This document shows, piece after piece, positions 23,686 through 42,910 of a DNA stretch of 64,000 nucleotides. The stretch is from Methanomicrobium sp. W14. Its GTDB lineage: Archaea > Halobacteriota > Methanomicrobia > Methanomicrobiales > Methanomicrobiaceae. Position 1 is the first letter of the stretch. Every line of letters begins with the position of its first letter. The notes under the pieces were generated by a model that saw only the letters and a list, made by a program, of their open reading frames with translations, had not been told where the DNA came from and did not search any database. The stretch is from the NCBI RefSeq assembly GCF_017875315.1, contig NZ_JAGGMM010000001.1, forward strand, positions 992,001-1,056,000. The letters run 5' to 3'. A program made the position numbers and the translations under genes.

Positions 23686-25443
23686 ATGAAAATTGAACGA
23701 CTACAGCTTTCCAAAAACAGAAAAGAAAACGTGACAAAAACTGTTGGTTCTGACAACAATCCCGATAGTCCGGATTGCAGTATCAAAAATGAAAAAAATC
23801 CTTTCAGAATTAAGTCAGGAAAAAAAACATTAAATATTTCAGAACTGACGTCAAAATTTGGATTTAACCTGAAAATTAAAAAAGACAAATCCAGAGAATG
23901 TTCAGGTCTAAAAGACGACTCCGGTAAAAAAAGAATAAATCCCGACGATGAAATCAATGAGATTTTTCAAAATTATTCAGATTTTGAATGTCCTCTTCCC
24001 GAATTGTCCGGTGATGAAATCGACTGGGTTGTCGAAAGGTACTGGCTGAAACCGCCTTATTCATATGTAAAAATTTTCAGGAACTGGGAATTCGACTTAA
24101 CCTATTCAATCGTAGAACCGAAAATAACAAAAAAAGAGCTTGTAATTCTCGAAGAAACATACGAGCACCTAAGATCAGTTCTCGTTTATGATTCACCCAG
24201 GCCGAAAGGAGATTTGAAACTTGATCCAATGTTTTTGAAACAGGTCATAAAATCGTTTGATCCCTCAATTACCTGCGAAAGAACTGATATACTAATATAT
24301 TACCTGCAGAGAAATTTTACCGGTTACGGCAAACTTGACCCAATGATGAGTGACGAGAACATCGAGGACATAACATGCAACGGCGCCGGCATACCTTTGT
24401 ACATATACCACAGAAAATACTGCAACCTCAGAACAAACCTTGTTTTCGACAATATCGAACTTAACAAATATGTCCTAAAACTGGCACAAAAAGCGGATAA
24501 ACAGCTTTCACTGACCACCCCGATTATCGACGCCGCTCTTCCGACAGGAGCCAGGGCACAGATCACTTACAGCGACATAGTATCGTCTAAAGGGAGCTCT
24601 TTTACAATCCGAAAATTCAAGACAGACCCTATGACCCCGGTTGATCTAATCTCAACCAAAACGTACAATGCGGAACTTATGGCATTCATCTGGCTTGCCG
24701 TTGAAAACAACAAGAGCATAATTATCGTAGGGGGAACGGCGTCAGGTAAAACGTCAACAATGAACGCCGCATCCTTTTTTATACCCACAACAGCAAAGAT
24801 TGTATCAATTGAGGATACAAGGGAGATTCAGCTACCGCACGACAACTGGCTTGCCATGAGAACGAGAGAGACAGGGATAACCTCCACAAAATCCGATGTT
24901 GACATGTTTACTCTTCTAAAAGCAGCTTTAAGGCAGCGCCCGGAATATATCATCGTAGGGGAAGTAAGAGGTGCCGAGGCGCAGACGCTTTTTCAGGCAA
25001 TGAATACCGGACATACCACTTATTCAACCATTCATGCAGGTGGAGTGAGTGAGGCAATCAACAGGCTTACGCACGAGCCGATAAACGTCCCGAGGGTTAT
25101 GTTCGGTGCACTTGACCTTATGGTAATTCAGGGTCTCCAGTTTGATGAAGGGCGCGGATTCAGGCGCTGCCTCTCAATAAACGAAATGGTTGTAAATGAA
25201 GGGGACATCAGCTGGAATGAAATTTACAGATGGGATCACATAAATGACGAATTTATCAAAAATACAAGAGAATCAAAAGTTTTAGGTGATATTGCATATA
25301 CTCACGGGTGGAATGATGACGCCCTTGAATACAATCTCCAGATTAGAAAAAATATGCTTGAAAGACTCGCTGACAAAAAAATTAACGACAGTATGCAGAT
25401 AAGCCACTTTATCAACGAGGTCAGAAAAACCTGCCGCAAATAA
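23686..25443 (+). CDS. Type II/IV secretion ATPase (GspE/TadA-like), pilus assembly motor
   Basis: The 585-residue protein has a variable N-terminal region, then the secretion ATPase core: Walker A GGTASGKTS (349-357), Asp box EDTREIQ (376-382), Walker B IVGEVRGAE (about 423-431) and His box TGHTTYSTIHAG (441-452). It drives pilin insertion or extraction at the inner face of the membrane with a TadC/ArlJ-like platform; the only such platform in the window is at 35122, ten kilobases away. A clear ribosome binding site (AGAGG) precedes the ATG. It is followed by an eight-T run that could end transcription. Confidence 0.95.
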   Translation: MKIERLQLSKNRKENVTKTVGSDNNPDSPDCSIKNEKNPFRIKSGKKTLNISELTSKFGFNLKIKKDKSRECSGLKDDSGKKRINPDDEINEIFQNYSDFECPLPELSGDEIDWVVERYWLKPPYSYVKIFRNWEFDLTYSIVEPKITKKELVILEETYEHLRSVLVYDSPRPKGDLKLDPMFLKQVIKSFDPSITCERTDILIYYLQRNFTGYGKLDPMMSDENIEDITCNGAGIPLYIYHRKYCNLRTNLVFDNIELNKYVLKLAQKADKQLSLTTPIIDAALPTGARAQITYSDIVSSKGSSFTIRKFKTDPMTPVDLISTKTYNAELMAFIWLAVENNKSIIIVGGTASGKTSTMNAASFFIPTTAKIVSIEDTREIQLPHDNWLAMRTRETGITSTKSDVDMFTLLKAALRQRPEYIIVGEVRGAEAQTLFQAMNTGHTTYSTIHAGGVSEAINRLTHEPINVPRVMFGALDLMVIQGLQFDEGRGFRRCLSINEMVVNEGDISWNEIYRWDHINDEFIKNTRESKVLGDIAYTHGWNDDALEYNLQIRKNMLERLADKKINDSMQISHFINEVRKTCRK

Positions 25444-25526: not shown

Positions 25527-26075
25527 TCAGCCTGGATTCTGGCAGGCCAGTGTACTGATGACTCCATAGCTTCCGTCATAAAGGACGACGGGATATGTCC
25601 ATATTATATATGTAGCCCCTTCTGCCTCCACTTCATCAAATTCTGTTTTTTTTCCCATTTTTCCATTAAGTGCAAGAAGATAATCGGGCATTTCTGAAAT
25701 TTTTTGAAGTACATCAATTCCTGATTCAGTCATTTTTTTACCAATAAGAATATTTTCCGGTGAGGAAAACAACTGAAAGAAATTTTCATTGACATCCCGG
25801 ATTACCCCCTCACTGGAGATTAAAACATAAGCAAGAGGCATTCTTTCGAGCCATACTTTGTTTATGGGAATGCGGTTTGACAGATTGTACACCTGTGCAG
25901 GTCCAACTACATGCATTTCGACCTGACCTAACGTACAAAGGATAGTAAGGTATTTTCCAACAGTGTTTCTGCTTATACCTGTTTTACGCACGATATCAGC
26001 GATTGTAAGACCATACCTGCTGCTCTGGAGCACACTCATTAAATACGCCGTGATTTCTTCATGAGTTTTCTTCAT
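25527..26075 (-). CDS. Transcription regulator with winged helix and PAS domain
   Basis: The 182-residue protein starts with a winged helix: YGLTIADIVRKTGISRNTVGKYLTIL (about residues 22-47) holds the recognition helix, and QVEMHVVGPAQVYNLS looks like the wing. From about residue 80 to the end there is a PAS domain (AYVLISSEGVIRDVNENFFQLF, then SPENILIGKKM) that could sense a small ligand or redox state. It sits between the pilus ATPase and the pilin cluster, so control of the pilus genes is the natural guess. No autoregulation can be proved, but TTAAC-G-GTTAA lies in its upstream region. Confidence 0.8.
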   Translation of the reverse strand: MKKTHEEITAYLMSVLQSSRYGLTIADIVRKTGISRNTVGKYLTILCTLGQVEMHVVGPAQVYNLSNRIPINKVWLERMPLAYVLISSEGVIRDVNENFFQLFSSPENILIGKKMTESGIDVLQKISEMPDYLLALNGKMGKKTEFDEVEAEGATYIIWTYPVVLYDGSYGVISTLACQNPG

Positions 26076-26554: not shown

Positions 26555-27280
26555 TCAGAGTATATCCGATGCCTTCATGTAACCGTCCCAGAAAACCGTT
26601 CCGTCTTCGCTTGAAAGAATGCCGTGCCCGTCACCGTTCACACTGACTGCCCCGCTCTGAAATGCCGTGCTTGCCCCCGATCCATCGCTTCTGTGCACTC
26701 CAAACCCAAGTTTCGCCGGAGCTGTCGCACTTTGCGGACTCAGATATTCAATAAACAATATAAACCGGTCTCCTGTACTAAGGATTGTTTCTTCCGGGCA
26801 CATGCCTTCCCCTGTCGGGTCAAGATTTTTGAATTTCATCATGCGGCACGTATAAAATTCTGTAGGGTCATATGCAAGCATACCTGTACCGGGATTGTTA
26901 AAGTAGAATCTGTTTCCCCCGCTTGCCCCGTCTCCTCCATTATAATACTTGCCCCATAAAGCGTCATTATAGGTCATGAATGCCTCTCCTCCGCCACCGA
27001 AACCAGTTCCTGATATGTAGAACTTCATCTTTTCAAGATCAAGTGAACCACCGGTGACTTCAAATATCAGTCCCACGAAACCGTTGTCAAGCTTTTTATC
27101 GTCTCCCCCGGGATTAATTCCGATGTATTTAACTGTTGCAGGCATTGATGAAGTAGTGTCTCCCATCATCCCCGTTCCAAAAGCCGAAACGACCGCTGCA
27201 AGGATTATTGTTACAACAAGCATAAGCATAACACCGACAACAGGCGAAACCGCCCCTTCTCTTTCATGAATATCTACCAT
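26555..27280 (-). CDS. Archaeal type IV pilin, type B (B3)
   Basis: The 241-residue protein has the short basic/acidic leader and the motif A-VSPVVGVMLMLVVTI, with class III signal cleavage expected after Ala10, followed by the hydrophobic helix that packs pilus cores. The ectodomain matches the B type of the cluster by the strand GLIFEVTGGSLDLEKMKF and the later GDRFILFIEY. It lacks the final YxIxD-S-SG strand seen in other B members and instead ends GTVFWDGYMKASDIL, so its C-terminus has diverged. It overlaps the A-type pilin before it by seven bases and is the last gene of the run. Confidence 0.88.
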   Translation of the reverse strand: MVDIHEREGAVSPVVGVMLMLVVTIILAAVVSAFGTGMMGDTTSSMPATVKYIGINPGGDDKKLDNGFVGLIFEVTGGSLDLEKMKFYISGTGFGGGGEAFMTYNDALWGKYYNGGDGASGGNRFYFNNPGTGMLAYDPTEFYTCRMMKFKNLDPTGEGMCPEETILSTGDRFILFIEYLSPQSATAPAKLGFGVHRSDGSGASTAFQSGAVSVNGDGHGILSSEDGTVFWDGYMKASDIL

Positions 27281-27993
27281 ATTACATTCACATCCTGGTC
27301 AAAGATTGCAGTGTTGCTTGGCTTGTGGACAACGGTGATGTGGACAACTGACCCTTCTCCAAACCCATATTTACTGTCACCCGTGTCAAATCCGAGGAAC
27401 TTATCAGGGTCTGCGAAAAAATAAACGCAGTTGGTCTCAAAGTTGCAGGTCCCGAAGTACTCGGTATTTTGAAAACCGCTCGTTGCCGGGTACAATGCCC
27501 CGGAATAACCGTTTGTCTGCGGAGTAAACGGATAGCCGTCTACAGTATCATCTATATCCACTGAAGGATCAGAGGTTGTCGTCCCCTCCTCAAAAGGAGA
27601 GATAGAACCGTCCAGAATATGCTTAATTACCCTCCCGCCGTCATCAAGTTTGACCCCGCGGGAACTCTCGGGAACAGTATATGACGTTATAATCTGGAGG
27701 TCTTTAGTAGGAACGTTCTTTCCTGCAAGGACACGCAGTTCAACTGGGTAACCATCAGATTTGGAAACATCACCTGCTTTTATCGTAAACTCATATGATA
27801 CTGAAGGAGACTGTTCCGAAGTCGAAACTATGCCTGAAGAAAAAGCGCTTACTACAGCTGCAACGATTATAGTCACAACAAGCATAAGCATAACGCCTAC
27901 AACTGGTGAGACTGCCTCATTATCCTCGCGAAACAAACAGCTTTTTTTTATCCGGATTTTTGTTTTTCCTTTCACATTTAACGCCCCCTTCAC
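27274..27993 (-). CDS. Archaeal type IV pilin, type A (A3)
   Basis: A 239-residue pilin with a longer, strongly basic leader; cleavage is expected after Ala27 in EAVSPVVGVMLMLVVTI. The ectodomain is closest to the first pilin of the run (30051-30716): both have DLxIIxSxTxP, then GxVxKHxxDGxxxP, then YPxTPQT, and both end with an IHxPSxxxIxDxDVxxxW type strand (VVHKPSNTAIFDQDVNVIW here). It overlaps the B-type pilin upstream by four bases and the next B-type by seven. Confidence 0.9.
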   Translation of the reverse strand: MKGALNVKGKTKIRIKKSCLFREDNEAVSPVVGVMLMLVVTIIVAAVVSAFSSGIVSTSEQSPSVSYEFTIKAGDVSKSDGYPVELRVLAGKNVPTKDLQIITSYTVPESSRGVKLDDGGRVIKHILDGSISPFEEGTTTSDPSVDIDDTVDGYPFTPQTNGYSGALYPATSGFQNTEYFGTCNFETNCVYFFADPDKFLGFDTGDSKYGFGEGSVVHITVVHKPSNTAIFDQDVNVIW

Positions 27994-28649
27994 TGGAGAG
28001 TTATCGTTCCGGACTGGATCTGCTTGTTGCTTATAGCGTCATATATAACATATTCAAGAGGTACATTCACCTGTGCTTTGAACGTGCCTGATGACCCCTC
28101 AGGAGTCCAGGTCAGAAATCTTCCCTTTTTTATTGAGTCATCCGTTGCAAGAGTACTGTCATAGCTGTCGTCTGCAACGAGCATGAAAGTGTCACCTACG
28201 GCAATAATATCAGACATCCCGGGTGAAATCGCAAAATAAGTGGAATTACCCTTTTTGTTTTCATAGATTTCCAGTTTGTTTCCCTCTTCGACAGCCGCGG
28301 AAGAACTGTCCAATAAAGTATCAGAAGTAAATTTCATCGAACTGTCGCCTGTACTGAGTTCAATCATTAAATTGTCAAGCGACAATGGTTCACCGCCGCT
28401 AAGACGGAATGTAAGACAGTTGTTTTTATGAGGATTGTCCGAGACATTATTTGTTTTATCGTCATCGTTTATCTGTACGTCATACCCTGCAACAAGCTGT
28501 GACTGCGGTGCGGTTTTTTCAGGACCGACAAGTGTTCCTGAAAGTGACGAGACTACTGCAGCAATGATAATTGTTACAACAAGCATAAGCATAACGCCGA
28601 CAACTGGTGAAACTGCAACTTCTTTATTCTTCAATAATTTAATACTCAT
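27990..28649 (-). CDS. Archaeal type IV pilin, type B (B2)
   Basis: This 219-residue pilin has a short leader with cleavage expected after Ala12 in VAVSPVVGVMLMLVVTI. The ectodomain shows the B pattern: LTFRLSGGEPLSLDNLMIEL, GDTFMLVADD and the closing strand EYVIYDAISNKQIQSGTITL. The start overlaps the A-type stop upstream by four bases (ATGA), which suggests translational coupling inside an A-B pair. Confidence 0.9.
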   Translation of the reverse strand: MSIKLLKNKEVAVSPVVGVMLMLVVTIIIAAVVSSLSGTLVGPEKTAPQSQLVAGYDVQINDDDKTNNVSDNPHKNNCLTFRLSGGEPLSLDNLMIELSTGDSSMKFTSDTLLDSSSAAVEEGNKLEIYENKKGNSTYFAISPGMSDIIAVGDTFMLVADDSYDSTLATDDSIKKGRFLTWTPEGSSGTFKAQVNVPLEYVIYDAISNKQIQSGTITLQ

Positions 28650-29317
28650 TCTACCGTCACCGTCCCTTTGTATATGCTCTTCTGGCTTGGATTATGAATT
28701 ACCTCAACTTCCACTGAAGAACCCCTTCCAAAGCCATAACCCGAATACGTAGAACTGTTTATTTCAGATGTTGTGGTAATACCAAAAACTGCAACTGCCG
28801 TTCCAAAATCGTCACCTGTACTTATCACATCCCCGGGACCGAACGTGTATTCGCCAAAATTCGTTCCGGGATCCCCGGGTTTTCCTATAGCCAGGTTGTT
28901 AAGGAACGGTATCTTTACGTCCTGGTCACTGTAGCTTAATTTAGCTGCACTTATAGCCGAAGTGACTGAAGATATTGAACCTCCAAGCATCTGCTTTCCT
29001 TTATCGCATGTGGACGGAGACGTGTAATATGTCAGAATCTGCATATCACTTGACGGAATACTGTCTCCCCCGAGATGTTTTATCAGCATGACATACTGGT
29101 CATCACCATCACCGCCGTTTGAGATGATGCTTACATCAAGCGAGGCACTCGGAACAGCTGTAGCTGAACCCGCTGCACCTCCGGCGAATACAGCAACAAA
29201 AGAAGCAATAATTATCGTAACTACGAGCATAAGCATCACCCCGATTACAGGTGACACTCCAAAATCATCTTTTAAAATATTTTTTCCAATTTTGCTTTTA
29301 ATGAATTTTAATTTCAT
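28646..29317 (-). CDS. Archaeal type IV pilin, type A (A2)
   Basis: The 223-residue pilin has a basic leader ending DDFG, with cleavage expected after Gly20 before VSPVIGVMLMLVVTI. The ectodomain begins PSASLDVSI, has LGGDSIPSSDMQILTYYTSP and ends SSVEVEVIHNPSQKSIYKGTVTV, the A-type closing strand. It lacks the TPQT region found in A1 and A3. It overlaps the B1 gene upstream and the B2 gene downstream by four bases each. Confidence 0.9.
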   Translation of the reverse strand: MKLKFIKSKIGKNILKDDFGVSPVIGVMLMLVVTIIIASFVAVFAGGAAGSATAVPSASLDVSIISNGGDGDDQYVMLIKHLGGDSIPSSDMQILTYYTSPSTCDKGKQMLGGSISSVTSAISAAKLSYSDQDVKIPFLNNLAIGKPGDPGTNFGEYTFGPGDVISTGDDFGTAVAVFGITTTSEINSSTYSGYGFGRGSSVEVEVIHNPSQKSIYKGTVTVE

Positions 29318-30057
29318 ATTATTTCTCCCACAAGACTCCCTGTTGAAATAACGGAACCTGAATCTTCATCCACTATCGAATACGTGGTCTTCGGACCTAC
29401 CTCAAACCACCCCCCTGAATACGGATTAGCTGCATTGCCGCGTTCGGCAACATAATAGACCTTTCCGAATTTTTTTCCTTCCCCGGTTGAGTACTTGTCT
29501 GCAAGGACAATGAACTTCTCACCGGGCTCAATCAGAAGATTTGCTGAAGACTTGACAACAGAAGTGTTATCCTGTATGGCACCGACTCCCCCGGAACGTG
29601 CTGGAAGTTTTGCAAACCTGTAATCCTTATAGAAACTCAAATATTCTGGACTCAGAACTGCAGTTGTCGAGGTCGCACCGTCATTTATGATTGTTTCCGA
29701 CGGAAAGTCCCTGTATGAGACCACCGCCTCGTGTCCCCGGGTTGTCGCGATGACTTTTCCGTCTGTATCCGTAACATTGGAAAGTCCCGACTCCTTAAGA
29801 TTCAGGGTTATCTCATCAAGTCTTATATCGTCTCCGCCAAGATTTTCAAAAACCAGTCCTATTTTTCCTGTATTACCGGGATCTACTGTCATCAGACCCG
29901 CATATCCTATCTGGACCGCAGGAGCGGATTTCGTGCCTGAAATCATATTCATTCCGAAACCCGAGACCACAGCCGCTATAATAATCGTCACGACGAGCAT
30001 CAGCATGACTCCGACAACAGGAGAGACCGCAGTTTCGTCTTTGCCCGAAGTTACCAC
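29314..30057 (-). CDS. Archaeal type IV pilin, type B (B1)
   Basis: The 247-residue pilin has a short leader with cleavage expected after Ala10 in TAVSPVVGVMLMLVVTI. Its ectodomain defines the B type: GKIGLVFENLGGDDIRLDE, GEKFIVLADKY and the closing TYSIVDEDSGSVISTG. It is most like the partial pilin at the right edge of the window, which has GLKFENTGGDTFSLND and YQVIDKDSGRVISSG at the same places. It overlaps the A1 stop by seven bases. Confidence 0.9.
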   Translation of the reverse strand: MVTSGKDETAVSPVVGVMLMLVVTIIIAAVVSGFGMNMISGTKSAPAVQIGYAGLMTVDPGNTGKIGLVFENLGGDDIRLDEITLNLKESGLSNVTDTDGKVIATTRGHEAVVSYRDFPSETIINDGATSTTAVLSPEYLSFYKDYRFAKLPARSGGVGAIQDNTSVVKSSANLLIEPGEKFIVLADKYSTGEGKKFGKVYYVAERGNAANPYSGGWFEVGPKTTYSIVDEDSGSVISTGSLVGEII

Positions 30058-30716
30058 GCTATCACCACATCTTTATCATAAATCGTTTCCCCGCTCGGGA
30101 TATGAATAATCGTTACATGGGCATTTTCATTTCCTGCAAGTCCGTATTCTGAAATGTAATTATTTCCGTCTGTAGGAAAACCAAGGAAATAGGACCTGTC
30201 AAACTGAACACTGCTCCCCGGGCTAAGAACCGCCGTTCCAAAAGTCCTGTCAGCCGTTCTTGTGCTGACAATGTCATCATTGTTTGTCGTCTGCGGTGTC
30301 CACGGGTAATCGGGGACTATTGCTGTATCAGTCACCAGATCGTTTGCCTCAACAGGGTCAAGAGTGCCGTCAATCGTATGTTTAACAACCTTTCCTGCAT
30401 TAGAAACGCTGGTTTTCATGACTGCATCAGGACATGTAAATGAGCTGATAATCCTGAGGTCTTTTGTGTTAAGACTGTCTCCTCCAAGATTTTCAATCAC
30501 AACATATTTTGATGCCCCCGAGGAACCTGCCGAAACCGAAACGTCAAGTGACACCGAAGGGGCAGCCTGGGAAGTACTGACAATCCCACCTGCAAAACCA
30601 CTTACAACTGCAGCAATGATAATTGTTACAACCAGCATCAGCATGACTCCGACAACAGGAGAGACCGCATCTTCATCGCATGCAGAAAAATACGCCTTTC
30701 TGTTTCTTTTTTTCAT
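30051..30716 (-). CDS. Archaeal type IV pilin, type A (A1), first gene of the pilin run
   Basis: The 221-residue pilin has a basic leader with cleavage expected after Ala17 in DAVSPVVGVMLMLVVTI. The ectodomain begins PSVSLDVSV, has LGGDSLNTKDLRIISSFTCP and ends AHVTIIHIPSGETIYDKDV, the A pattern. A GGTGGAG ribosome binding site precedes the start. As first gene of six overlapping pilins, it should mark the 5' end of the transcript, whose promoter lies in the 380-base gap to the right. Confidence 0.9.
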   Translation of the reverse strand: MKKRNRKAYFSACDEDAVSPVVGVMLMLVVTIIIAAVVSGFAGGIVSTSQAAPSVSLDVSVSAGSSGASKYVVIENLGGDSLNTKDLRIISSFTCPDAVMKTSVSNAGKVVKHTIDGTLDPVEANDLVTDTAIVPDYPWTPQTTNNDDIVSTRTADRTFGTAVLSPGSSVQFDRSYFLGFPTDGNNYISEYGLAGNENAHVTIIHIPSGETIYDKDVVIAW

Positions 30717-30780
30717 AAACTCTTACTCCACCCACATAACTCAGATTAAATCGATCTAAACCAAAAAAATGGGATAAATC

Positions 30781-30803
30781 AATATTTGTAATACTCAAAT
30801 ATT
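30781..30803. repeat. Perfect 8-bp inverted repeat, 7-base spacer
   Basis: AATATTTG and CAAATATT frame TAATACT, 65 bases upstream of the first pilin start. The size and symmetry fit a dimeric operator; AT-richness lowers its weight. Confidence 0.45.
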
Positions 30804-30868
30804 AATCCGTCGCAAATCGAACATATTAAAGGTTATTTTAAAAAATATGCATTTTATATTGTTAGATT

Positions 30869-30887
30869 AGATCTGATCATCAGATCT
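30869..30887. repeat. Perfect 8-bp inverted repeat, 3-base spacer
   Basis: AGATCTGA and TCAGATCT around TCA form a near-continuous 19-base palindrome in the middle of the divergent region. It overlaps by one base the hairpin that follows. Confidence 0.5.
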
Positions 30888-31012
30888 GCAAAGGAGAAAT
30901 GCCCGGTATCTTTGCATTACAAAATAAGCCATTATAACGGTTTTTTATAGTATTGGGGCACATTTTGTACAGTTTTGGGAGATGATGAGCATAGTCAGTC
31001 TTTACCCACGGC

Positions 31013-31048
31013 ATAACAAATAAAAATTTAGTATAACAAATAAATTTA
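31013..31048 (+). repeat. Two tandem imperfect direct repeats
   Basis: ATAACAAATAAAAATTTA (31013-31030) and ATAACAAATAAATTTA (31033-31048) recur with a 20-base period, 50 bases ahead of the surface operon. They could be binding sites on one face of the helix, or a duplicated AT-rich promoter part. Confidence 0.4.
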
Positions 31049-31097
31049 CTGAAAATCTGTCACAAAAAACCATAATACAGGACATCTGAGAAAAAAC

Positions 31098-33629
31098 ATG
31101 TGCACACGGAAATTTTTAGGCATCTTTTTGGTAATCTTCCTGATATGCCTGATTGACATAAATACAGCATCCGCACGGTATGCAACACTCTCAGGAGAGA
31201 ACGCAGGAATCAACTCAGGAGATGTCATTTTCATCGGGGAAAGAAATCTTGATTTTTCCAGATTTGCCAACTCTTCGGGAGTTCTGCCTGCCAGACTTGT
31301 CCATACCGACGGGACAAGGTACGGGATAATAACTATTTCAGATGGTACAGGCTCCCTTACAGGAAACGACATTACAGCAGGAATGTACTACCCGTATTAC
31401 CCCGACGGGACATCAGGCACTTCATACTGCATTGTAAGGGAATTAACTCTTGGGGAAATCGGGATATACACGTATAATACTGACATAAAACCCTCAAATC
31501 TTCCTCAACAGCCTTCAGCCCTGGCAAAAACCACTGATATTGCATTTATCACACCGGATGTAAACATTGACGGTGCAAACCTGACAGGAAACTGGTACAA
31601 ATATTCCCTTTCCAGGGGGACACTCACTACGTCCACAATTACGAATATTCACCAGAATTCCGTTGGACTTGATACACTTACTATTGATCCGAGAGACAAA
31701 CCTGACGAAACTCTCTCTGATGCACCGGTCTTCAGGCTGATAGATCAGACTATAGTATCGTCACAAACCGGTAATGTTTCATTAACAGCAGTATTTTCTA
31801 CAAATAATCTGAACGGACTTGAAAAATCCGTATCCTATCCGTTTACAGCCTCTTTGTTCTCACCCGCACTATCTGCCGAAACAGAGGTTGTACAGAACAC
31901 CTATTTCGATTTGACTGTTACAGGAGTCCCTTACACCAGATATAATATTTCAATATCAGGCAGTTCATCCGGTTCTGATGCCCCGCAATTTGAAAGCGGA
32001 GACTGGGAAGAGATGATATCTTACCAGGAGATATCCACTCATACAGAATGGACAGGTACAAAAACTTTTCAGATATATGTCCCGGAATCAGCCCCTACTA
32101 ACACATACGAAATAGAGATGACAGACGCTGACGGCAACTCTGCAGAACTGTCATTTACGGTGTCATCAGGTGCGATGAGCTTATACTTTAATGAGCCGTC
32201 TGATGAGATAAAGTCCGGCTTATATTCGGTAGGAGACTCAATCTCTCTTGAAGGTTATATCACAGGAGCAACAAAACCTGAAGACGTATACCTGTTTATT
32301 ACCGGCCCGAACCTGCCTGCAAACGGGGCGAAACTTGATGCTTTGGGAAAAGAAGTCTCAGACGGAGAAGAAGATTCATTCACAGTGACCAGATATAGTG
32401 TAGTTCTGGGAAAATGGTCCTATGAATGGAACACCACTGACTTTGAGTCAGGAACATACACGATTTATGCAAACTTAAAGCCTTACGGGTACACCTCAAG
32501 CAGTTACCCGGGTGGCCCCGGTACAGATATAAACGGAAACACCCCGCCTTCACATGACTACCCTTTAAGCGAACCGAGTCTTAACATAAAATTTGATGAT
32601 AAAAACAACGGTTATTTTGCACAGGGCGATATACTCTACGGGTGGTGGCTTTCCAGGGGAAGCGCTTCTGAACTTCGCTGGTATATTTTTGGTAATAATT
32701 TCAGGTATGCTGACAACAAATCCGGCATGTCTGCAGGAATCACTTCATCCGGTTCGGCATACGATAGCGATGAGAAAGTTCCATGGAATGAATACGGGTT
32801 TACCTACAACCGTAACTTCACGTACAACCTGTATCCGGGAGTTTATTATTTTGTCTGCCAGCATCCGGGCCCAAACAAGATATTCGAGGTAAATGCAAAC
32901 AAGTACAGCGCAGTCCCCGCAGTTATTAATGCGACCTTTGGAAGTTCTGTGAATTTAAATTCAATGTCAGGAACAGAAGCCGCAAATGCACTGATAAAAC
33001 TGCTGGACAACCCTTATACTGATGACATATATGTTAAGACCAAATTTGTCATAGAAGAACCGTGGATAAGAATAGACGATCCGGGAGAAATTTCTGTAGG
33101 CAACTCTCTTACAGTTTCCGGAATCACAAATCTGGCACCTTCAGGCACAACACCGGACAAAACAAAAACACAGGACACTCTTTACCTTAATATAAACCGG
33201 CTTGACATGGATGTAGGGTCGGACTCAGTAACTGCAATGAAAATACCAGTAGACGAAACGACTCCTTTGTCATCACCAAAAGGCTATAAAAGCTTTAAAT
33301 ATGACCCGATTGACACATCATCGTGGTACCCGGGGACATACCAGATAACAATAACCTGCAAAGACGCATCTGTAAAAAAAAGTTATACCTTCGAACTCCT
33401 GGGCCAAAAAACATCGTCAGATTCAGAATATTTATCTTCAGATACAGAATCATCTCTTCAGGAATCCAAACCACACACTGCATCAAAAACTCCGGCAACC
33501 GTCCAATTGCAGGAAACTGCTTCTGTCACGGTTAAGTCAACACAGAAGTCCGGAACGGATTTGAATATAATTTCTCTTTTAGCTGTTTTATGCTCATATG
33601 TAGCATTTGCATATAGCAGGAGAGAATAG
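31098..33629 (+). CDS. Large surface protein with DUF3821-like N-terminus
   Basis: The 843-residue protein has a signal peptide (FLGIFLVIFLICLIDINTASA, cleavage near residue 26) followed by NAGINSGDVIFIGERNLDF, the start expected for DUF3821, a domain of surface proteins in Methanomicrobiales. Several beta-sandwich-like repeats follow, for example STHTEWTGTKTFQIYVPESAP and the WSYEWNTTDFESGTYTIYA and DTSSWYPGTYQITI pair. A Ser/Thr-rich stalk near 770-815 and a short C-terminal hydrophobic segment (IISLLAVLCSYVAFAY) end the chain. It leads the pilus operon, so it may be an S-layer-like or pilus-associated surface protein. Confidence 0.8.
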   Translation: MCTRKFLGIFLVIFLICLIDINTASARYATLSGENAGINSGDVIFIGERNLDFSRFANSSGVLPARLVHTDGTRYGIITISDGTGSLTGNDITAGMYYPYYPDGTSGTSYCIVRELTLGEIGIYTYNTDIKPSNLPQQPSALAKTTDIAFITPDVNIDGANLTGNWYKYSLSRGTLTTSTITNIHQNSVGLDTLTIDPRDKPDETLSDAPVFRLIDQTIVSSQTGNVSLTAVFSTNNLNGLEKSVSYPFTASLFSPALSAETEVVQNTYFDLTVTGVPYTRYNISISGSSSGSDAPQFESGDWEEMISYQEISTHTEWTGTKTFQIYVPESAPTNTYEIEMTDADGNSAELSFTVSSGAMSLYFNEPSDEIKSGLYSVGDSISLEGYITGATKPEDVYLFITGPNLPANGAKLDALGKEVSDGEEDSFTVTRYSVVLGKWSYEWNTTDFESGTYTIYANLKPYGYTSSSYPGGPGTDINGNTPPSHDYPLSEPSLNIKFDDKNNGYFAQGDILYGWWLSRGSASELRWYIFGNNFRYADNKSGMSAGITSSGSAYDSDEKVPWNEYGFTYNRNFTYNLYPGVYYFVCQHPGPNKIFEVNANKYSAVPAVINATFGSSVNLNSMSGTEAANALIKLLDNPYTDDIYVKTKFVIEEPWIRIDDPGEISVGNSLTVSGITNLAPSGTTPDKTKTQDTLYLNINRLDMDVGSDSVTAMKIPVDETTPLSSPKGYKSFKYDPIDTSSWYPGTYQITITCKDASVKKSYTFELLGQKTSSDSEYLSSDTESSLQESKPHTASKTPATVQLQETASVTVKSTQKSGTDLNIISLLAVLCSYVAFAYSRRE

Positions 33630-33632
33630 ACC

Positions 33633-35051
33633 ATGGCATTTGAAATTGATCAAAAACTTTTCAAATGGATTATTGCCGCCATAATACTCATGTGCCTTGT
33701 AAGCGCCGCAGGCATTCTTTATAAAGCAACAGATGGTTTCTCTTTCCTCGGTTTCGGGCACTCAGAAGATGAATATTCACAAAATCTCACCAGCTATTCA
33801 TGGTCAGACAATGAAGATAACTCAAAACCATGGGGATACAAAAAGTTCAACTGGACATATAATAACGAAAATGTCTCTATCGGGGTAAATATTCCAAAAA
33901 AACTCTATACAGAATACGAATACGGGATCAGAGGCACGGAATACCCGGTAAATATTACAGACTACATTACAGCTTCAGAGGAGATATTGCCAGAAATCAA
34001 AGAAGAAATCTCTGACATAATCAAAAGCAAAGGTTACAGCAACGAAAAAGATACAACAGGCCTGATTTTATCGTTTGTAAGCTCAATTCCATATGAAACC
34101 GATTCTGAATCAGGCCACAGTTCTGATTACCCAAGAACGCCTGCAGTTATACTCGCCGATTATACAGGCGACTCAGGTGATCATTCGATTCTCGCCGCAG
34201 CTATCTTACGTGAATTCGGGTATGGAGTGTCACTCATATATTTCCCGTCAGAATCATTTGACGAACAGACGGTAATACCTGAAGCAGTTGCTTTAGGTCT
34301 CATATCAAAGGATGACAGCAATAATCCGGTTTATCCTGTTTCAGACAAAAGCAACAACGAAACAAGAGAAGTCATTCCGGTATGGACTGTCAACGTATCA
34401 GAGAAAGGTTTTCCTCTCCCGGCATATTACGCGATTTCTCCTGAAGTTTTCCCTGACGATTCACTGTGGGACGGCTCTGAGTACCACCCGTCAGCTGAAT
34501 TGATGGTGGATTTCACAAATGACCTTAAAATACACTATGAGACCATCAGCCCAGATTCTTTGGGAAGAAACTCCTTTACAAGCCAAAACTGGCAACAGGA
34601 GACTTTGGATTATTATGAAAACACATGGTATCCTTCGGGAATAACATGGTCTATGAATGACAAATGGCGTCTTTACGACAAGTTTCTGGGCATAAATGAG
34701 AATCCCGGTGTACTTTATACCCCCTGGGGATTTGCCGAGGCAAACACCACGAATCCATGGAGGATTACTTTTAAGATAAACGGTATGGATGAATTAAAGT
34801 CCGACAAGAAGATGACACCGTACAGTGACGTAAGTTTTGCTCTTTATGAAGTCAATTCAACAACAGGCGACATTTCTCTGTTCAGGCAGTTCGGCTGGGA
34901 GAACCACTACGGAGCAGACCTGAATAAAGTTGAAGGACCTTTTTCACCTGGCAATTACATACTGGGGATATTTGTAAGAAACGCTGCCCCTGAAGTTTCG
35001 GTAGAGTACAGCGGAAAAGAAACATCAACTAATTACCAGGGCCCGATATGA
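33633..35051 (+). CDS. Membrane-anchored transglutaminase-like protein, catalytic Cys apparently replaced by Ser
   Basis: The 472-residue protein has one N-terminal membrane span (residues 11-30) and an extracytoplasmic region. Residues 160-196 read like the core of archaeal transglutaminase-like proteins (PAVILADYTGDSGDHSILAA, then ILREFGYGVSLIYFP). In active members the motif is GDCxDxS, with the nucleophilic Cys; here Ser171 stands at that place. The fold is inferred from this segment only. A catalytically silent or altered enzyme is possible. It follows the DUF3821 gene by three bases and overlaps the next small ORF, so it belongs to the pilus operon. Confidence 0.6.
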   Translation: MAFEIDQKLFKWIIAAIILMCLVSAAGILYKATDGFSFLGFGHSEDEYSQNLTSYSWSDNEDNSKPWGYKKFNWTYNNENVSIGVNIPKKLYTEYEYGIRGTEYPVNITDYITASEEILPEIKEEISDIIKSKGYSNEKDTTGLILSFVSSIPYETDSESGHSSDYPRTPAVILADYTGDSGDHSILAAAILREFGYGVSLIYFPSESFDEQTVIPEAVALGLISKDDSNNPVYPVSDKSNNETREVIPVWTVNVSEKGFPLPAYYAISPEVFPDDSLWDGSEYHPSAELMVDFTNDLKIHYETISPDSLGRNSFTSQNWQQETLDYYENTWYPSGITWSMNDKWRLYDKFLGINENPGVLYTPWGFAEANTTNPWRITFKINGMDELKSDKKMTPYSDVSFALYEVNSTTGDISLFRQFGWENHYGADLNKVEGPFSPGNYILGIFVRNAAPEVSVEYSGKETSTNYQGPI

Positions 35052-35125
35052 CAGGGAGAGAGCAGAAATACCGGGACTTATTTCCCAAATTCAGGATTAT
35101 AGGGCAAATTTTTGGTTATAAGTGA
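35048..35125 (+). CDS. Possible 25-residue microprotein linking two pilus genes
   Basis: An ORF of 25 codons starts with an ATG that overlaps the preceding stop (ATGA at 35048-35051) and ends with TGA at 35123-35125, which overlaps a GTG start of the next gene (GTGA). Residues are MTGREQKYRDLFPKFRIIGQ and then IFGYK, basic with an amphipathic look. It fills the 70-base space exactly, so it could be a translational bridge, a real small protein, or a shifted N-terminus of the TadC-like protein. Nothing in the sequence proves translation. Confidence 0.4.
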   Translation: MTGREQKYRDLFPKFRIIGQIFGYK

Positions 35126-36936
35126 TAGAAATGGCAGATTCTGAGGGCTTCATTGATTCTATTCTCAACAACAGGCAGCTGTCACTGTATCTTAAGTCTG
35201 CACATATAAAAACACAGGTAAATCAGTACATGATGGCAGCCGTTCTTCTTAGCGTTCTGCCATTTTTTGCTGCAATGATGACAGGCGTAATTCTTTACAC
35301 ATTTGATGTAAACCCCGGACTGCTGCCACCTGTTCCTGACCCTCTGGTTATAGCAGGCGGCGGAGTGGTCATATCTGCACTGATTTTTCTTGGTTTTTAT
35401 TATTATCCACAACTTGAGGCTTCTGGACGGAAAAACAGTATTGACATGGATTTAGCGTATGCAGTCACATATATGCAGGCTCTTTCATCAACATTACCGC
35501 TTTACGATATTTTCAGAAGCGTTTATGAAGCTGACGACCTTTATGGTGAAGTTTCAAAGGAATGCGGGATTATTGTCCGCAATGTTGAAGTTTTCGGGGA
35601 GGACCTTTTGAGCGCTATGGAGTACGTAATTTCAGTAACGCCGTCAGAAAGGTTTAAAGAGCTTATAAACGATCTTATGCTTGTCTACCGTTCAGGCGGC
35701 AATCTCAAAAATTTCTTTAATGCAAAATCCGAATCCTACCGTGAAATCGCAAAACAGGAACTTGAAGCTCTGCTTCAGTTTCTTGAAATGATTGCTGAAA
35801 TTTACGTCACCGCTTTTGTTGCAGGTCCCATTGCAATTATTATAATGCTTGTTGCACAGAACCTCTCGGGCCAGAACCAGCTCAACGGAATAATGCCCCT
35901 TTTGTATTTTGGTCTGCCTTTAGGTGCAATTGCCTTAATTTTTGTACTTTATGTTCTTCTGCCCCCTGACAACCTTGACATCTCCAGAAAGGAAATAAAA
36001 GACATAGAGTTCGGTCAGGACCTTCTTGAGCCTGACGATAAGACCGAACTTGATAAAAAATTTCTTAAAGACTTCAACAACCGCAAACAGGTTTTAAAAC
36101 TTCTTGATATAATCAGACATCCGGTTAAATTTTACATCTCTGACTACAATATCGGCATAACTCTTGGATGTATTGCCGCGGTTCTGGTATTTTTTGCCTA
36201 TTATACAGGATACATAGCCCTGATAATCCCGCAGTATACAACAGAGACTTTTATATGCCTGATGATAATTGCAGGAATTTTCCCCGTGATGCTTGCCTAT
36301 GAAATACGCAGCAAATACGTAAAAAATGTTGAAAGACAGCTTCCAGAGTTTTTGCGTGAGATCTCAGACATGCGTGACATTGGCATGACACTTCAGAGTG
36401 CAATAAAAATGATTTCGGCAAGTAAAGCCGGAGTTTTATCCTCGGAGATAAGAATAGTCTCAGACGAACTCAGTTATGGCTCTTCTCTTTCCGGCGCACT
36501 CGTAAGAATGGAAGAGCGTATAGGACTTGTCTCCGTAAAAAGAGCAATATCTCTCCTTGTTAAAGCAAGCGAAGTGACAGATGCCATAAGAGAGATTCTT
36601 GCTATCGCAATCTCCGATCTTGAACATTATCTGAGAATGAAATCAAAAAGGTTCAATGTCTCATTTGTCTATCTTGCCGTAATTTACCTGTCTTTTGGTA
36701 TATACCTGTATTCCGCATACCAGATGAATGTCGCTTTTATATCCAGTTTTTCCGATTTTAACCTTAACCTGGATATCAGTTCAAGCAAGGCCGGCATGTT
36801 TCACATAGGAATTATTCTTGGGTTCTTTTCCGGAATTATGGCAGGGCAGCTTTCATCAAACAGCATATATGCAGGACTGAAACATTCGGCTCTACTTCTG
36901 ACTGCAACAATCATTACTTTCGTATATCTTATTTGA
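35122..36936 (+). CDS. TadC/ArlJ-like (GspF) pilus platform protein
   Basis: The 604-residue membrane protein has two T2SSF-type halves. The first contains AYAVTYMQALSSTLPLYDIFR near residue 110 and the second EFLREISDMRDIGMTLQSAI near 410, each followed by an internal helical bundle and paired membrane spans; about eight to nine spans in all. It is the inner-membrane platform on which the secretion ATPase acts. The matching ATPase is likely the one at 23686. The start is GTG at 35122 or ATG at 35131; AGTGAT four bases before the ATG looks like a binding site and favours 35131. Confidence 0.92.
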   Translation: MIEMADSEGFIDSILNNRQLSLYLKSAHIKTQVNQYMMAAVLLSVLPFFAAMMTGVILYTFDVNPGLLPPVPDPLVIAGGGVVISALIFLGFYYYPQLEASGRKNSIDMDLAYAVTYMQALSSTLPLYDIFRSVYEADDLYGEVSKECGIIVRNVEVFGEDLLSAMEYVISVTPSERFKELINDLMLVYRSGGNLKNFFNAKSESYREIAKQELEALLQFLEMIAEIYVTAFVAGPIAIIIMLVAQNLSGQNQLNGIMPLLYFGLPLGAIALIFVLYVLLPPDNLDISRKEIKDIEFGQDLLEPDDKTELDKKFLKDFNNRKQVLKLLDIIRHPVKFYISDYNIGITLGCIAAVLVFFAYYTGYIALIIPQYTTETFICLMIIAGIFPVMLAYEIRSKYVKNVERQLPEFLREISDMRDIGMTLQSAIKMISASKAGVLSSEIRIVSDELSYGSSLSGALVRMEERIGLVSVKRAISLLVKASEVTDAIREILAIAISDLEHYLRMKSKRFNVSFVYLAVIYLSFGIYLYSAYQMNVAFISSFSDFNLNLDISSSKAGMFHIGIILGFFSGIMAGQLSSNSIYAGLKHSALLLTATIITFVYLI

Positions 36937-36945
36937 GGGTGTATT

Positions 36946-37446
36946 ATGACAGCAGACGCATCACTGAAAGAAAAACAGTTTATAAGCACTAATAAAAAAA
37001 CAGAGGAAGGTGTAACCTCTGTTGTCGGCGAAATGCTTCTTTTAGTGCTTGTTGTAATTTTAGTGTCCATTATGGCAGCATCAGTCTTCAATTTACTCCC
37101 GGGAGAGCGTGAAAAAGTCATCGACGTCACAATGGACGTCAATGATAAAGTCATATATTTCTGGCACCACGGAGGGGACTGGACGGATAAAAGAGACCTG
37201 AGCATTTACATGATGAAATCAGACGGAAGCGGGACAACAGCGTCAATATCAGCCACCGATAAGAGACTTACCATATATGCTTACAATTCGTCTTCCGGCG
37301 ATTATACCGTTTCCTCGGATACTTTTGATCTCGGGTGCAGAATCAGTGCTGAAGTTCCATCAGATATTGAATCAGGAAACTATGACATCCGCCTTATAGA
37401 TTCAGAGAAGGTCATCGCTGCATACGATAGGGTGAGGTTAAAATGA
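36946..37446 (+). CDS. Pilin-like protein, divergent
   Basis: The 166-residue protein has a long leader with cleavage expected after Gly22 in EGVTSVVGEMLLLVLVVI, a variant of the pilin motif, and a hydrophobic helix. The ectodomain is short (DKVIYFWHHGGDWTDKRDL, ending YDIRLIDSEKVIAAYDRV) and recalls the B-type closing strand. Glu is at position 5 of the mature helix (VTSVVGE is at 23-29), as in many type IV pilins where it registers the subunit. A GAGGGTG site precedes the ATG. It overlaps the next gene by four bases. Confidence 0.82.
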   Translation: MTADASLKEKQFISTNKKTEEGVTSVVGEMLLLVLVVILVSIMAASVFNLLPGEREKVIDVTMDVNDKVIYFWHHGGDWTDKRDLSIYMMKSDGSGTTASISATDKRLTIYAYNSSSGDYTVSSDTFDLGCRISAEVPSDIESGNYDIRLIDSEKVIAAYDRVRLK

Positions 37447-38246
37447 GAACTGAGACAGAAGAGGCGGTTTCCACCGTTGTTGCTATAATGCTTATACTGG
37501 CAATTTTTGCCACCTGCATGGCAGTCTACACCTCAACATATGTACCCGGTCTAAAACAGCAGTCCGAAATACTGCATAACAAAGACGTTAAATATTCATT
37601 TTTAAGATTTTCGTCCGACGTCGATAACATATACAGTCTTGGCAGGGTGTCTCAGTTCAGTGAACCTCTGGTCCTTGGAGGTGGGAGCATTCTTCTTAGT
37701 GCATCCGAATCAGGAGGCAGAATTGACATGAAAAACACGAAAATAGGAGAGTTATCCATATATGAAGATAACACAGAGGTCAGAAAAATACCTATAGAAA
37801 CCGTTAGCGTAATTTATACTCCTTATTTCTCGTCATGGGAGCTTCAGGGATACCGCTATGAAAACGGTACAGTATGGATTACAAAGGATGGAATCGATAA
37901 AAAAGCCCCGGCCTCAGTGAGCCTGAATTCGGTCAGTGACGGAAAGGATAATGAAAAGAATAACATTTTGAATTACCTGTCAGGTATGGCCGAAAGCTAT
38001 ACTTCATGCAATGAAACGAAAAACATCAGGGTCATATCAATGAAACCTGGAGAACCTGACTATATCAGCGGTTCCGGCTCTGTCGCTTTAAATCTTAACT
38101 GCCAAAATAGCAGTATTTCTCATGTTTTTTCAAAAAACGGCAGAATCGTATTAAGCAGTGAAGACGGATATGAAAAAACAATCTCTGCATCTGCAGGAGA
38201 CACTCTGACAATCGACATTCTTGAAACAGGAGTGAGCGTCAAATGA
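37443..38246 (+). CDS. Pilin-like protein, larger ectodomain
   Basis: The 267-residue protein has a very short leader (cleavage expected after Ala8) before VSTVVAIMLILAIFATCMAV, a recognisable pilin helix. Its ectodomain is bigger and beta-rich (FSSDVDNIYSLGRVSQFSEP to TIDILETGVSVK) and does not fit types A or B. It may be a tip or minor pilin. Overlaps of four bases on both sides (ATGA) place it within the operon. Confidence 0.8.
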   Translation: MRTETEEAVSTVVAIMLILAIFATCMAVYTSTYVPGLKQQSEILHNKDVKYSFLRFSSDVDNIYSLGRVSQFSEPLVLGGGSILLSASESGGRIDMKNTKIGELSIYEDNTEVRKIPIETVSVIYTPYFSSWELQGYRYENGTVWITKDGIDKKAPASVSLNSVSDGKDNEKNNILNYLSGMAESYTSCNETKNIRVISMKPGEPDYISGSGSVALNLNCQNSSISHVFSKNGRIVLSSEDGYEKTISASAGDTLTIDILETGVSVK

Positions 38247-38725
38247 AATATATGAACACAAATTACACGGCAGTGTCATCAGTGGTCAGCGTAATGGTGA
38301 TGCTCTCCATATTACTGGTAATCTCTGCTGTTCTGGCAGCATATGCAGGAGGAATTATAAATATCCCTAAAAATGCTCCTTCAGCGGATATTTCAGTATA
38401 TACAACCGGCTGCGGTCAAAACTTTTCCATAGTTTTTGAGCACAGAACCGGAGATGCACTAAAGACAGAAAACCTACAGGTAGTTACATTTGTAGACGGC
38501 AACCAGGGAATCTTTCTGCTCTCAAATATTCAGTCTGAAAAATTTATTGCAGGAAGAAAAATCTTAACTGAAAATCTTACAAGTACTGCCGGACTTCTGG
38601 GCTTAAAAACTGAAGAACTGGATGGTTACCTGAAAAACCGTACGTCTCTTGAAATAGCAGTCTATGATCTGCCTTCAGGAACCCGTCTGTATAAATCAGA
38701 GGTAATCATGGAGGACAGAGCGTGA
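38243..38725 (+). CDS. Pilin-like protein, type A (A4)
   Basis: The 160-residue protein has a short leader with cleavage after Ala10 and the helix VSSVVSVMVMLSILLVIS. The ectodomain follows the A pattern in shortened form: APSADISV, GDALKTENLQVVTFVDG and SLEIAVYDLPSGTRLYKSEV. It is followed by a B-type gene with a four-base overlap (GTGA), so it repeats the A-B pairing seen in the minus-strand run. Confidence 0.83.
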   Translation: MKYMNTNYTAVSSVVSVMVMLSILLVISAVLAAYAGGIINIPKNAPSADISVYTTGCGQNFSIVFEHRTGDALKTENLQVVTFVDGNQGIFLLSNIQSEKFIAGRKILTENLTSTAGLLGLKTEELDGYLKNRTSLEIAVYDLPSGTRLYKSEVIMEDRA

Positions 38726-39201
38726 AACACAACAGCTCAGCTGTTTCCGAAGTAGTCGGAGTACTTCTGATGCTTACAGTAACTCTGTTAATAACAGGAC
38801 TGGTCGTAGTTGCCGTAAACGGACTGAACAAGAACATGGACAAACCGGTTACAGCATCAGTTACCGCGTCGGAAATCTCAGAAGACGCTAACAATAAATA
38901 TATTATATTTGACAATACGCTGGGAGATTCCTTCACTTTGGACAGAATTATGATAAGTCTCGGCATTTATGAAAGACCTGCCGACAATATAATAATTTAC
39001 GGATCGGATACAAAAAGGTTGAAAAGCTATTCCGGTGACGGTATTGTCGCCTTAGGAGGCCGTTTCAGACTGTTATCTGACTATGAAGACAGACTGGGAT
39101 GGGATTCATTTGAAATATCTTCAGGCGAACACCTGGATTATGCATTATATGATCGCAGGGCAAATGCATTGATTTCTAAAGGATCAATTGTTATACCCTG
39201 A
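38722..39201 (+). CDS. Pilin-like protein, type B (B4)
   Basis: The 159-residue protein starts with GTG overlapping the A4 stop; cleavage is expected after Ala7 before VSEVVGVLLMLTVTLLITG. The ectodomain has the B features: KYIIFDNTLGDSFTLDRIMI, GGRFRLLSDYE and the closing YALYDRRANALISKGSIVI. It ends the plus-strand operon and meets cmk tail to tail across 79 bases. Confidence 0.83.
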   Translation: MKHNSSAVSEVVGVLLMLTVTLLITGLVVVAVNGLNKNMDKPVTASVTASEISEDANNKYIIFDNTLGDSFTLDRIMISLGIYERPADNIIIYGSDTKRLKSYSGDGIVALGGRFRLLSDYEDRLGWDSFEISSGEHLDYALYDRRANALISKGSIVIP

Positions 39202-39280: not shown

Positions 39281-39808
39281 TCAGACCTTCAGATTTTCAA
39301 CTGCCGAGTCAACAACCCTTGCAAGCTCTTCCTTACCCCATTTTTCAGAGCTTATGACAAGGTCATAGACCGACAGATCGCAGATATCAATATTGTAATA
39401 TTTTTTGTATCTTTCGGATTCAGACTTTTCACGGACGAAAGTTTCACTTTTTGCAGATTCAAAGCTTACCCCTTCCCTTTCTGCAATTCTTTCTGCACGG
39501 CAGTCAGGGGATGCGGCAATCCAGACTCTTAAATCGGCGTTACCGACCATACGACCGGCAAGTCTGCCCTCTATTATAATATTCTCCTTAGATTCGCCGA
39601 TTTCCTTCTGTTTTTCGTCTATAAGCCTGTCAACATCAGGATTTTGTTCGCACAGTTCACCAAACTCAATAAGACTCACTCCTTTTTCTCTTGCAAGGCT
39701 GCGAAAAACTTCTCCTGCAGAAATAAGCTCAAAAGAATATTTGGACGAGAGATATTTCGCAAGGGACGTCGTACCGCTTCCTGGCGGACCGCTTATGGTT
39801 ATCTTCAA
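39281..39808 (-). CDS. cmk: Cytidylate kinase, archaeal type
   Basis: The 175-residue kinase has the P-loop SGPPGSGTTS (residues 5-14), AGEVFR near 31 and the LID-side IIIEGRLAGRMV near 75. It phosphorylates CMP and dCMP in the cytosol. Archaeal cmk typically lies near secY, adkA and DUF106, as here. The gene begins three bases before the stop of DUF106 (39811). In many Euryarchaeota rpl34e, rpl14e and truB follow; here it is the last of the cluster. Confidence 0.9.
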   Translation of the reverse strand: MKITISGPPGSGTTSLAKYLSSKYSFELISAGEVFRSLAREKGVSLIEFGELCEQNPDVDRLIDEKQKEIGESKENIIIEGRLAGRMVGNADLRVWIAASPDCRAERIAEREGVSFESAKSETFVREKSESERYKKYYNIDICDLSVYDLVISSEKWGKEELARVVDSAVENLKV

Positions 39809-39810
39809 AA

Positions 39811-40428
39811 TTAGAGGCCCCCTATATCAAGGGTTTTTCTTATAACCTGCGACAAAGTCAGCGAACAGAGCATATACCATACAATCCATGCAGGCATGAA
39901 TATAAATGTAGGATCAGTAAGATTCAGCTCTCCCATAAACGGAAAAACAATTGTGCCCATAGAAGGAGCCATCTGTAAAAGCCACAGGAATATCGGAATT
40001 GTAATAATCATAATCCAGCCGAGCGGTTTGAACTGCTCCTGCGACATTGCAAGCTGCTCCTGCATCATTTTATCACGTTTTTCGTTAAGCTTACGCATTT
40101 TCTTTTCGTCACCGGAAAGCTGCGCCTCTCGAAATTCCTTCTGAAAGTCACGCATCTTTTTCTGAACCCTCTGCATCTTCTCGTAGTCAATTGTATATTT
40201 CTGGAGAAGTGAAGAATAACATCCCGTAATCGCCGCAAGGACAAGAATCATTACCGGCCAGCCGACACCAAGAATCTCGTGCAGAGGGTTTAGCAAAAGG
40301 CCTGCAATGTCCGCAATAGCGTTTCGAAGAAAAGGAACGCTGTATACAACCATTACAAGAACCATTATTATAAGGAATGTAAACATCCCTCCGCTGCTAC
40401 CCGCCGGCTTTGTTTTTGTCGCTGCCAT
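39811..40428 (-). CDS. DUF106 membrane insertase-like protein (EMC3/TMCO1 family)
   Basis: The 205-residue protein has membrane spans at about residues 13-30, 55-75 and 145-165 plus a hydrophobic end, with a highly charged coiled coil (EKMQRVQKKMRDFQKEFR) between the second and third. This is the Oxa1/EMC3-superfamily layout of archaeal DUF106, thought to help insert membrane proteins. Its place next to secY fits. It follows adkA by 10 bases. Confidence 0.88.
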   Translation of the reverse strand: MAATKTKPAGSSGGMFTFLIIMVLVMVVYSVPFLRNAIADIAGLLLNPLHEILGVGWPVMILVLAAITGCYSSLLQKYTIDYEKMQRVQKKMRDFQKEFREAQLSGDEKKMRKLNEKRDKMMQEQLAMSQEQFKPLGWIMIITIPIFLWLLQMAPSMGTIVFPFMGELNLTDPTFIFMPAWIVWYMLCSLTLSQVIRKTLDIGGL

Positions 40429-40438
40429 AAGACTTATC

Positions 40439-41014
40439 TCACCTCAGGAGTTCAACCATCTCAGAAACAGCGTTTTCAAGCAGGAAATCAAGATTTTTAA
40501 TTATCTTTACAGTACACCCTGTAAACATGGAATAAGAAGCCGCCATATAGCGATTGTACCTCTGGTGGTCTTTTATTGCCGCATAACCTTCCATGTCCCT
40601 TGAACGTGTCGTATCTGAAAGACGGCGTTTAAGAATCTGATCCTCATCCGTTTCAACAAGAACAATAACGTCAGGCTTTAACTCCTGAAGCACCCATGAA
40701 GGAAGTCCGGGAAGATAACCTCCCGGAGTGCTCACAGTGCAGTGCGTGTCAATAATTATATTTTCCTGAATCTTTGCAATTACCTGTGCTGCTGTTTTTT
40801 GCAGTGACTTTTGTACTTCCTGATCAAGTTTTCGCATTTCATCGCGATCATTTACTATACTCTGGTCGCATGCAACTTCAAACATGCAGGTTCCGAAATT
40901 GATGGAGGTATATGAAATACCCTCAGCCTTTAAAGCTTCCATCGAGGCATCAATAACAGTTGTTTTTCCGACTCCCGGTACCCCCGTTATTACTACCTTT
41001 TTCCCAATAGACAT
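40439..41014 (-). CDS. adkA: Adenylate kinase, archaeal type
   Basis: From the ATG at 41014 the protein has 191 residues and starts MSIGKKVVITGVPGVGKTTV, the P-loop of archaeal adenylate kinase. An AGGAGTGA site lies seven bases upstream and the start keeps the gene clear of secY, so a longer frame reaching 41107 is rejected. It interconverts AMP, ADP and ATP. RSRDMEGY near residue 145 and the LID region fit the trimeric archaeal form. Confidence 0.93.
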   Translation of the reverse strand: MSIGKKVVITGVPGVGKTTVIDASMEALKAEGISYTSINFGTCMFEVACDQSIVNDRDEMRKLDQEVQKSLQKTAAQVIAKIQENIIIDTHCTVSTPGGYLPGLPSWVLQELKPDVIVLVETDEDQILKRRLSDTTRSRDMEGYAAIKDHQRYNRYMAASYSMFTGCTVKIIKNLDFLLENAVSEMVELLR

Positions 41015-41021
41015 ATTAAAT

Positions 41022-42455: not shown

Positions 42456-42477
42456 ATATGGTTCACCAAAAAATGAT

Positions 42478-42903: not shown

Positions 42904-42910
42904 CCCTTTT

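Follow-up and report, generated by a model that had tools for sequence, protein, structure and literature searches.

The analysed window is a 64,000-nucleotide stretch of the Methanomicrobium sp. W14 genome (contig NZ_JAGGMM010000001.1, positions 992,001 to 1,056,000). It contains a full type IV pilus assembly locus, in which genes for an ATPase, an S-layer-like protein, a membrane protein and a platform protein are followed by the pilin genes s, L, A4 and B4, as well as a minus-strand run of six pilin genes. The features of the locus are listed below, with positions counted from the first letter of the window.

23686..25443 (+): type IV pilus assembly ATPase (T2SSE, PF00437)
25527..26075 (-): HTH regulator adjoining the pilin run; weak HTH_11/HTH_IclR matches, under the Pfam cut-offs
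26555..27280 (-): pilin B3, 241 aa
27274..27993 (-): pilin A3, 239 aa; class from clustering and tree
27990..28649 (-): pilin B2, 219 aa
28646..29317 (-): pilin A2, 223 aa; class from clustering and tree
29314..30057 (-): pilin B1, 247 aa; cognate partner of A1
30051..30716 (-): pilin A1, 221 aa; opens the six-pilin run; A clade in trees
31098..33629 (+): S-layer-like surface protein (NCBIfam S_layer_MEMAR, E 4e-56, under that model's cut-off)
33633..35051 (+): pilus-operon protein with a membrane anchor
35122..36936 (+): membrane platform protein, TadC/PilC type, two T2SSF domains (PF00482)
36946..37446 (+): small pilin s, 166 aa (PF07790); first of the s-L pair
37443..38246 (+): large pilin-like protein L, 267 aa; follows s in the s-L pair; candidate minor pilin, in a cluster of its own
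38243..38725 (+): pilin A4, 160 aa; with B4, a pair within the assembly operon
38722..39201 (+): pilin B4, 159 aa

The eight A and B reading frames lie where the preliminary description had placed them, and the overlaps of 4 to 7 bases that it gave between neighbours were recovered at every junction (7 bases for A1/B1 and A3/B3; 4 bases for B1/A2, A2/B2, B2/A3 and A4/B4). All eight proteins match Pilin_N (PF07790) above the curated cut-off. A4 and B4 close a run of four pilins, in the order small - large - A4 - B4 (36946-39201), in which L had no Pfam match. Profile searches likewise yielded no family for the membrane-anchored protein at 33633..35051, which is possibly transglutaminase-like. 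The pilus locus adjoins a conserved minus-strand ribosomal protein / secY cluster (39281-44516 and beyond), and a further A-B pair is located just past the right end of the window, about 26 kb from its arrays (G000 C1:1055579-1056801; L006:7573-8858).

The source genome (2.54 Mb) has 52 Pilin_N matches, found in arrays at about a dozen places, and these include 20 A-B pairs; the pairs are spread over 11 arrays, of which all but one (AABBAB) keep the regular order. The same genome encodes about five platform proteins, three of them of the window type (604-615 aa), and this small number of platforms for about 20 pairs indicates that the pairs share machines.

Two classes of pilin heads

Pilin heads, trimmed to begin at residue 38 of the conserved box, were aligned with one another in every combination and grouped by spectral clustering that was blind to gene position. 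Heads still holding part of the helix were all merged by single-linkage clustering, which trimming to residue 38 resolved. One cluster contained A1-A4, and the other clusters contained B1-B4 and the remaining pilins. The two types proposed from motifs in the preliminary description are thus recovered independently of both motifs and gene position. The motifs themselves occur but are loose, and A4, B3 and B4 deviate from them within the window; in a wider set, the C-terminal pattern [IVL][HY]xPSxxx[IV][YFLV] was present in 74/193 A and 0/185 B heads, and the strict pattern DxxSxx[IV]x[SE]G in 15/185 B and 0/193 A heads.

Phylogenetic trees also separated the types into two clades, as that description had anticipated. 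FastTree analysis of 180 divergent heads placed 70 of 72 A heads in one B-free clade, the two outliers being not real A genes, and in a maximum-likelihood IQ-TREE tree of 37 divergent pairs all 37 A heads were split from all 37 B heads by one change on the tree (support 97). A and B heads show no phmmer-level similarity and are related weakly, at the profile level (hhalign, 96.9%). Their N-terminal helices are about 80% identical.

The AlphaFold models of A1 (pLDDT 80) and B1 (pLDDT 83) each show a single helix at the N-terminus and a complete head rich in beta structure; with their short leader, hydrophobic N-terminal helix and Ig-like beta head, both have the predicted features of archaeal type IV pilins. 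The best PDB match of the A1 model was the Haloferax volcanii pilus 8fj5, followed by FlaF and a Cuniculiplasma filament, and the B1 model gave weak matches that included FlaF, FlaG and 8fj5. Searching the sequences of solved structures with the heads by themselves yielded nothing useful. Neither predicted head resembles half a domain, so that strand swapping would not be needed.

Order and spacing of the paired genes

In Methanomicrobiales, adjacent A/B genes are of different types in 237 of 250 cases, as against a mean of 125 and a maximum of 152 in shuffled orders, which rules out chance as the cause of alternation. Non-duplicate arrays include 69 AB, 16 ABAB and 16 ABABAB, and in arrays with two A/B genes A always precedes B (71/71); these counts cover species with common ancestry and hence are not independent events, although the rule also holds inside the source genome. 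Relatedness alone is rejected as an explanation by the presence of the pattern within one genome, and recent local duplication by the occurrence of the six-gene A-B order in other families. A second set of further loci was scored with A and B profiles built beforehand, and already known proteins were excluded. It contained 22 pure AB-type arrays, all with A first, plus one sLAB and one AABABB array; every A was at least 36 bits nearer the A profile and every B at least 48 bits nearer the B profile. The alternation first noticed in the window is therefore found in most loci of related genomes, with the two types adjacent.

The two kinds of junction differ in spacing. When measured to the nearest start codon, the junction from A to B is a 4-base overlap in 73 of 173 cases and falls within 20 bases in 98%, versus 4 of 63 and 41% where an A follows a B. 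With its tight internal junction, set against the loose one from B to A, the A-to-B pair is the unit. The window is atypical in that its B-to-A junctions also overlap by 4 bases. The tight packing of A and B genes makes coupled translation probable.

Joint duplication of A and B

The preliminary description had proposed that the two-pilin module was duplicated as a unit, and this is borne out within single genomes. In three genomes, the similarity of two A proteins predicts that of their partner B proteins (r 0.81, 0.80 and 0.84; permutation maxima 0.39, 0.48 and 0.51), a correlation that co-duplication of neighbours alone can yield. When genomes are compared with each other, the closest A and the closest B prove to be partners in 282 of 336 cases, against 18 expected. 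Partners also resemble each other slightly more in their helices than do non-partners from the same genome (0.812 vs 0.797; 0/5000 permutations reach 0.812), and the same is true of their codons; this extra likeness within pairs fits local gene conversion or co-packing. Codon adaptation is similar in A, B and machine genes and does not separate the classes. When 215 A-B pairs (effective number 120) were subjected to direct-coupling analysis, the scores between the two proteins were higher than in locally shuffled pairings, with top columns that resembled clade-specific indel positions; the intra-protein couplings contained no strand ladders, and no A-B contact was derived.

Secreted fusions of A and B heads

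In three genomes, we identified a gene for a secreted A-B-A-B head fusion without the pilin helix, which is intact in G308 and G430 (727 and 718 aa) and frameshifted in G229 (612 + 99 aa).

L228:1501-3684 (+): A-B-A-B fusion, intact
L230:1495-3651 (-): A-B-A-B fusion, intact
L229:1504-3342 (-): A-B-A-B fusion, frameshifted

With local profiles, the A parts match A at 1e-46 to 1e-56 and the B parts match B at 3e-21 to 6e-6; the first B part of the G308 and G229 fusions had no match to the A profile. In G308 and G430, the fusion A parts are closest to A2 of the genomes' own ABAB pilin operon (55-61% identity), and B2, the partner of A2, is the nearest match of each of the four B parts. The heads of the fusion thus derive from one cognate pair, and no other finding points as strongly to joint action of the A and B heads. 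Lacking the pilin helix, the fusion shows that the heads belong together and does not imply their alternation in a filament; it may act on the pilus as a soluble cap or regulator. A short helix-like linker precedes each A head of the fusion.

Departures from strict alternation and other pilin genes

Strict alternation is broken by a conserved variant six-gene array, A-A-B-A-B-B (or A-A-B-B-A-B), found at the following loci.

L014:12209-15964 (-): variant array
L023:11005-14800 (-): variant array
L029:10052-13917 (-): variant array
L046:1-3462 (-): variant array
L069 and L170: variant arrays

The variant has an extra A at its start, plus an extra long B-like pilin. Six seemingly single A genes were also checked. 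Two were contig-end or masked artefacts (L128, L110) and two were misassigned other pilins (L018, L116), which leaves only two seemingly real lone A pilins (L040:14151-14936, plus strand; L011:4177-4818, minus strand).

A second conserved pilin pair consists of a small pilin (head about 95-110 aa) directly followed by a large one (head 210-295 aa). These s-L neighbours were seen in 21 cases (window 36946-38246, L013, L034, L040, L042, L045, L050, L083 and others), in several loci beside the platform protein, and are a candidate minor-pilin or initiation pair. A separate 870-aa reading frame with a pilin-type N-terminus (L016:7158-9770, plus strand) is possibly a large adhesin-like pilin.

Taxonomic distribution

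With a profile of the A head, A was found in 43 of 295 genomes of the phylum, namely in many Methanomicrobiales and in two further families. The latter are probably Methanosarcinaceae and Archaeoglobaceae, the assignment of Archaeoglobaceae being supported by the named Archaeoglobi loci L095, L115 and L116. Outside the order, each of the 20 strong A genes examined (17 loci) is directly followed by B. Elsewhere in the phylum most pilins are single, and tandem sets can consist of one type (L149, L162). In a tree that included 36 single pilins, the 27 A heads, drawn from three groups, all fell into one clade (support 82), and B heads were intermixed with the single pilins. Judged from this unrooted tree, B looks like an ordinary pilin and A like a derived partner of single origin.

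Discussion

The usual model of an archaeal type IV pilus is a polymer of a single major pilin. The gene pairs described here suggest, with a probability that we put at roughly two in three, that a single archaeal type IV pilus has A and B as its cognate subunits, both obligate, which most likely form a heteromeric unit. Each A is encoded directly before its own B, and translation of the packed genes is probably coupled. Under this model, the short leaders of both proteins would be cleaved, and A and B would pair by way of their Ig-like heads, either within or at the membrane. The heterodimer would then enter the filament, where the near-identical N-terminal helices would form the core and A and B heads would alternate on the surface. 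The many pairs of one genome (about 20 in the source genome) probably share few assembly machines, each pair giving rise to a chemically different filament.

A more specific version of this model, to which we would give slightly less than an even chance, is that a class of pili in Methanomicrobiales and in some genomes of the two further families is built of strictly alternating A-B heterodimers, with about 20 mutually insulated cognate versions per genome that are served by few machines, and that some lineages additionally secrete a soluble A-B-A-B form. If the gene rule is read in this way, it predicts which genomes build two-subunit pili and which pilins belong together, and makes the heteropolymer question testable by genome reading, complex prediction and re-processing of filament images. 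Arrays once treated as plain tandem duplicates would become about 20 cognate pairs per genome, a natural test set for how mispairing between similar subunits is avoided.

The main competing explanation, which we regard as unlikely although deserving of attention, is that B is the major filament pilin and A is a minor pilin or a co-expressed tip or decorating pilin, so that the pair would be a specificity unit with no 1:1 ratio. Minor pilins commonly adjoin major ones, A almost never occurs without B, and the intermixing of B heads with single, presumably self-sufficient pilins of other archaea, next to a derived A class, is what this explanation would lead one to expect. It would require, however, that every major pilin have a minor pilin of its own, strictly cognate and always encoded upstream, across about 20 pairs per genome, which would be unusual. 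The fusion holds equal numbers of A and B heads, and the tight A-to-B junctions and similar codon adaptation suggest, if weakly, comparable amounts of the two proteins.

It is considerably less probable that A and B are ordinary co-expressed paralogues mixing at random to vary the surface. Random two-pilin heteropolymers do exist: the Streptococcus sanguinis pilus contains two major pilins, PilE1 and PilE2, in comparable amounts and in stochastic arrangement, with no preferential heterodimer (PMC10628169). The roughly 80% identity of A and B helices is in keeping with such mixing. PilE1 and PilE2 are, however, extensively identical and the A and B heads are not, and the fixed gene order, the single clade of each type and the A-B-A-B fusion all speak against random assembly. 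That alternation is a mere footprint of tandem duplication of a two-gene operon, with A and B in separate filaments, seems very improbable: arrays did grow by pair duplication, but this leaves unexplained the asymmetry of the junctions, the fact that A is not found without B in the two families beyond the order, and the fusion of cognate heads.

The proposal that A and B are cognate subunits of one pilus can be compared with several known systems. In the Geobacter split pilin PilA-N/PilA-C, two adjacent genes make one pilus subunit, one providing the helix and the other the head. Unlike these two polypeptides, A and B each have a helix and a complete head. The PilA-type systems of Haloferax volcanii and other euryarchaea resemble A and B in their Pilin_N family, their conserved N-terminal helix and the presence of several pilins per few ATPase/TadC machines, and a machine of this kind lies in the window; the paralogues are treated there as major pilins, any one of which suffices (Makarova et al. 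2016, PMC4858521). This archaeal pilin census takes tandem copies as plain duplications and mentions subfunctionalization, and in the sections considered here it describes no two-class alternating rule (PMC4858521).

The preliminary description knew of no account of such pairing. This is too broad, given the two-pilin pilus of S. sanguinis (PMC10628169) and the archaellum of Methanocaldococcus villosus (PMC8821640), but it stands for the A-B gene rule in archaeal pili, of which we found no description in the open-licence literature; an earlier account elsewhere is possible. In the M. villosus archaellum, regular alternation of ArlB1 and ArlB2 was resolved by cryo-EM, and a preformed heterodimer was proposed as the building block (PMC8821640). 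Its alternation is seen in the filament, whereas that of A and B is predicted from their genes. ArlB1 and ArlB2 are archaellins with 56.5% mutual identity, encoded in one operon, while A and B are pilins related at the profile level, with many pairs per genome. What the two systems share is that genes for two different homologous subunits of an archaeal type IV filament lie side by side in one operon.
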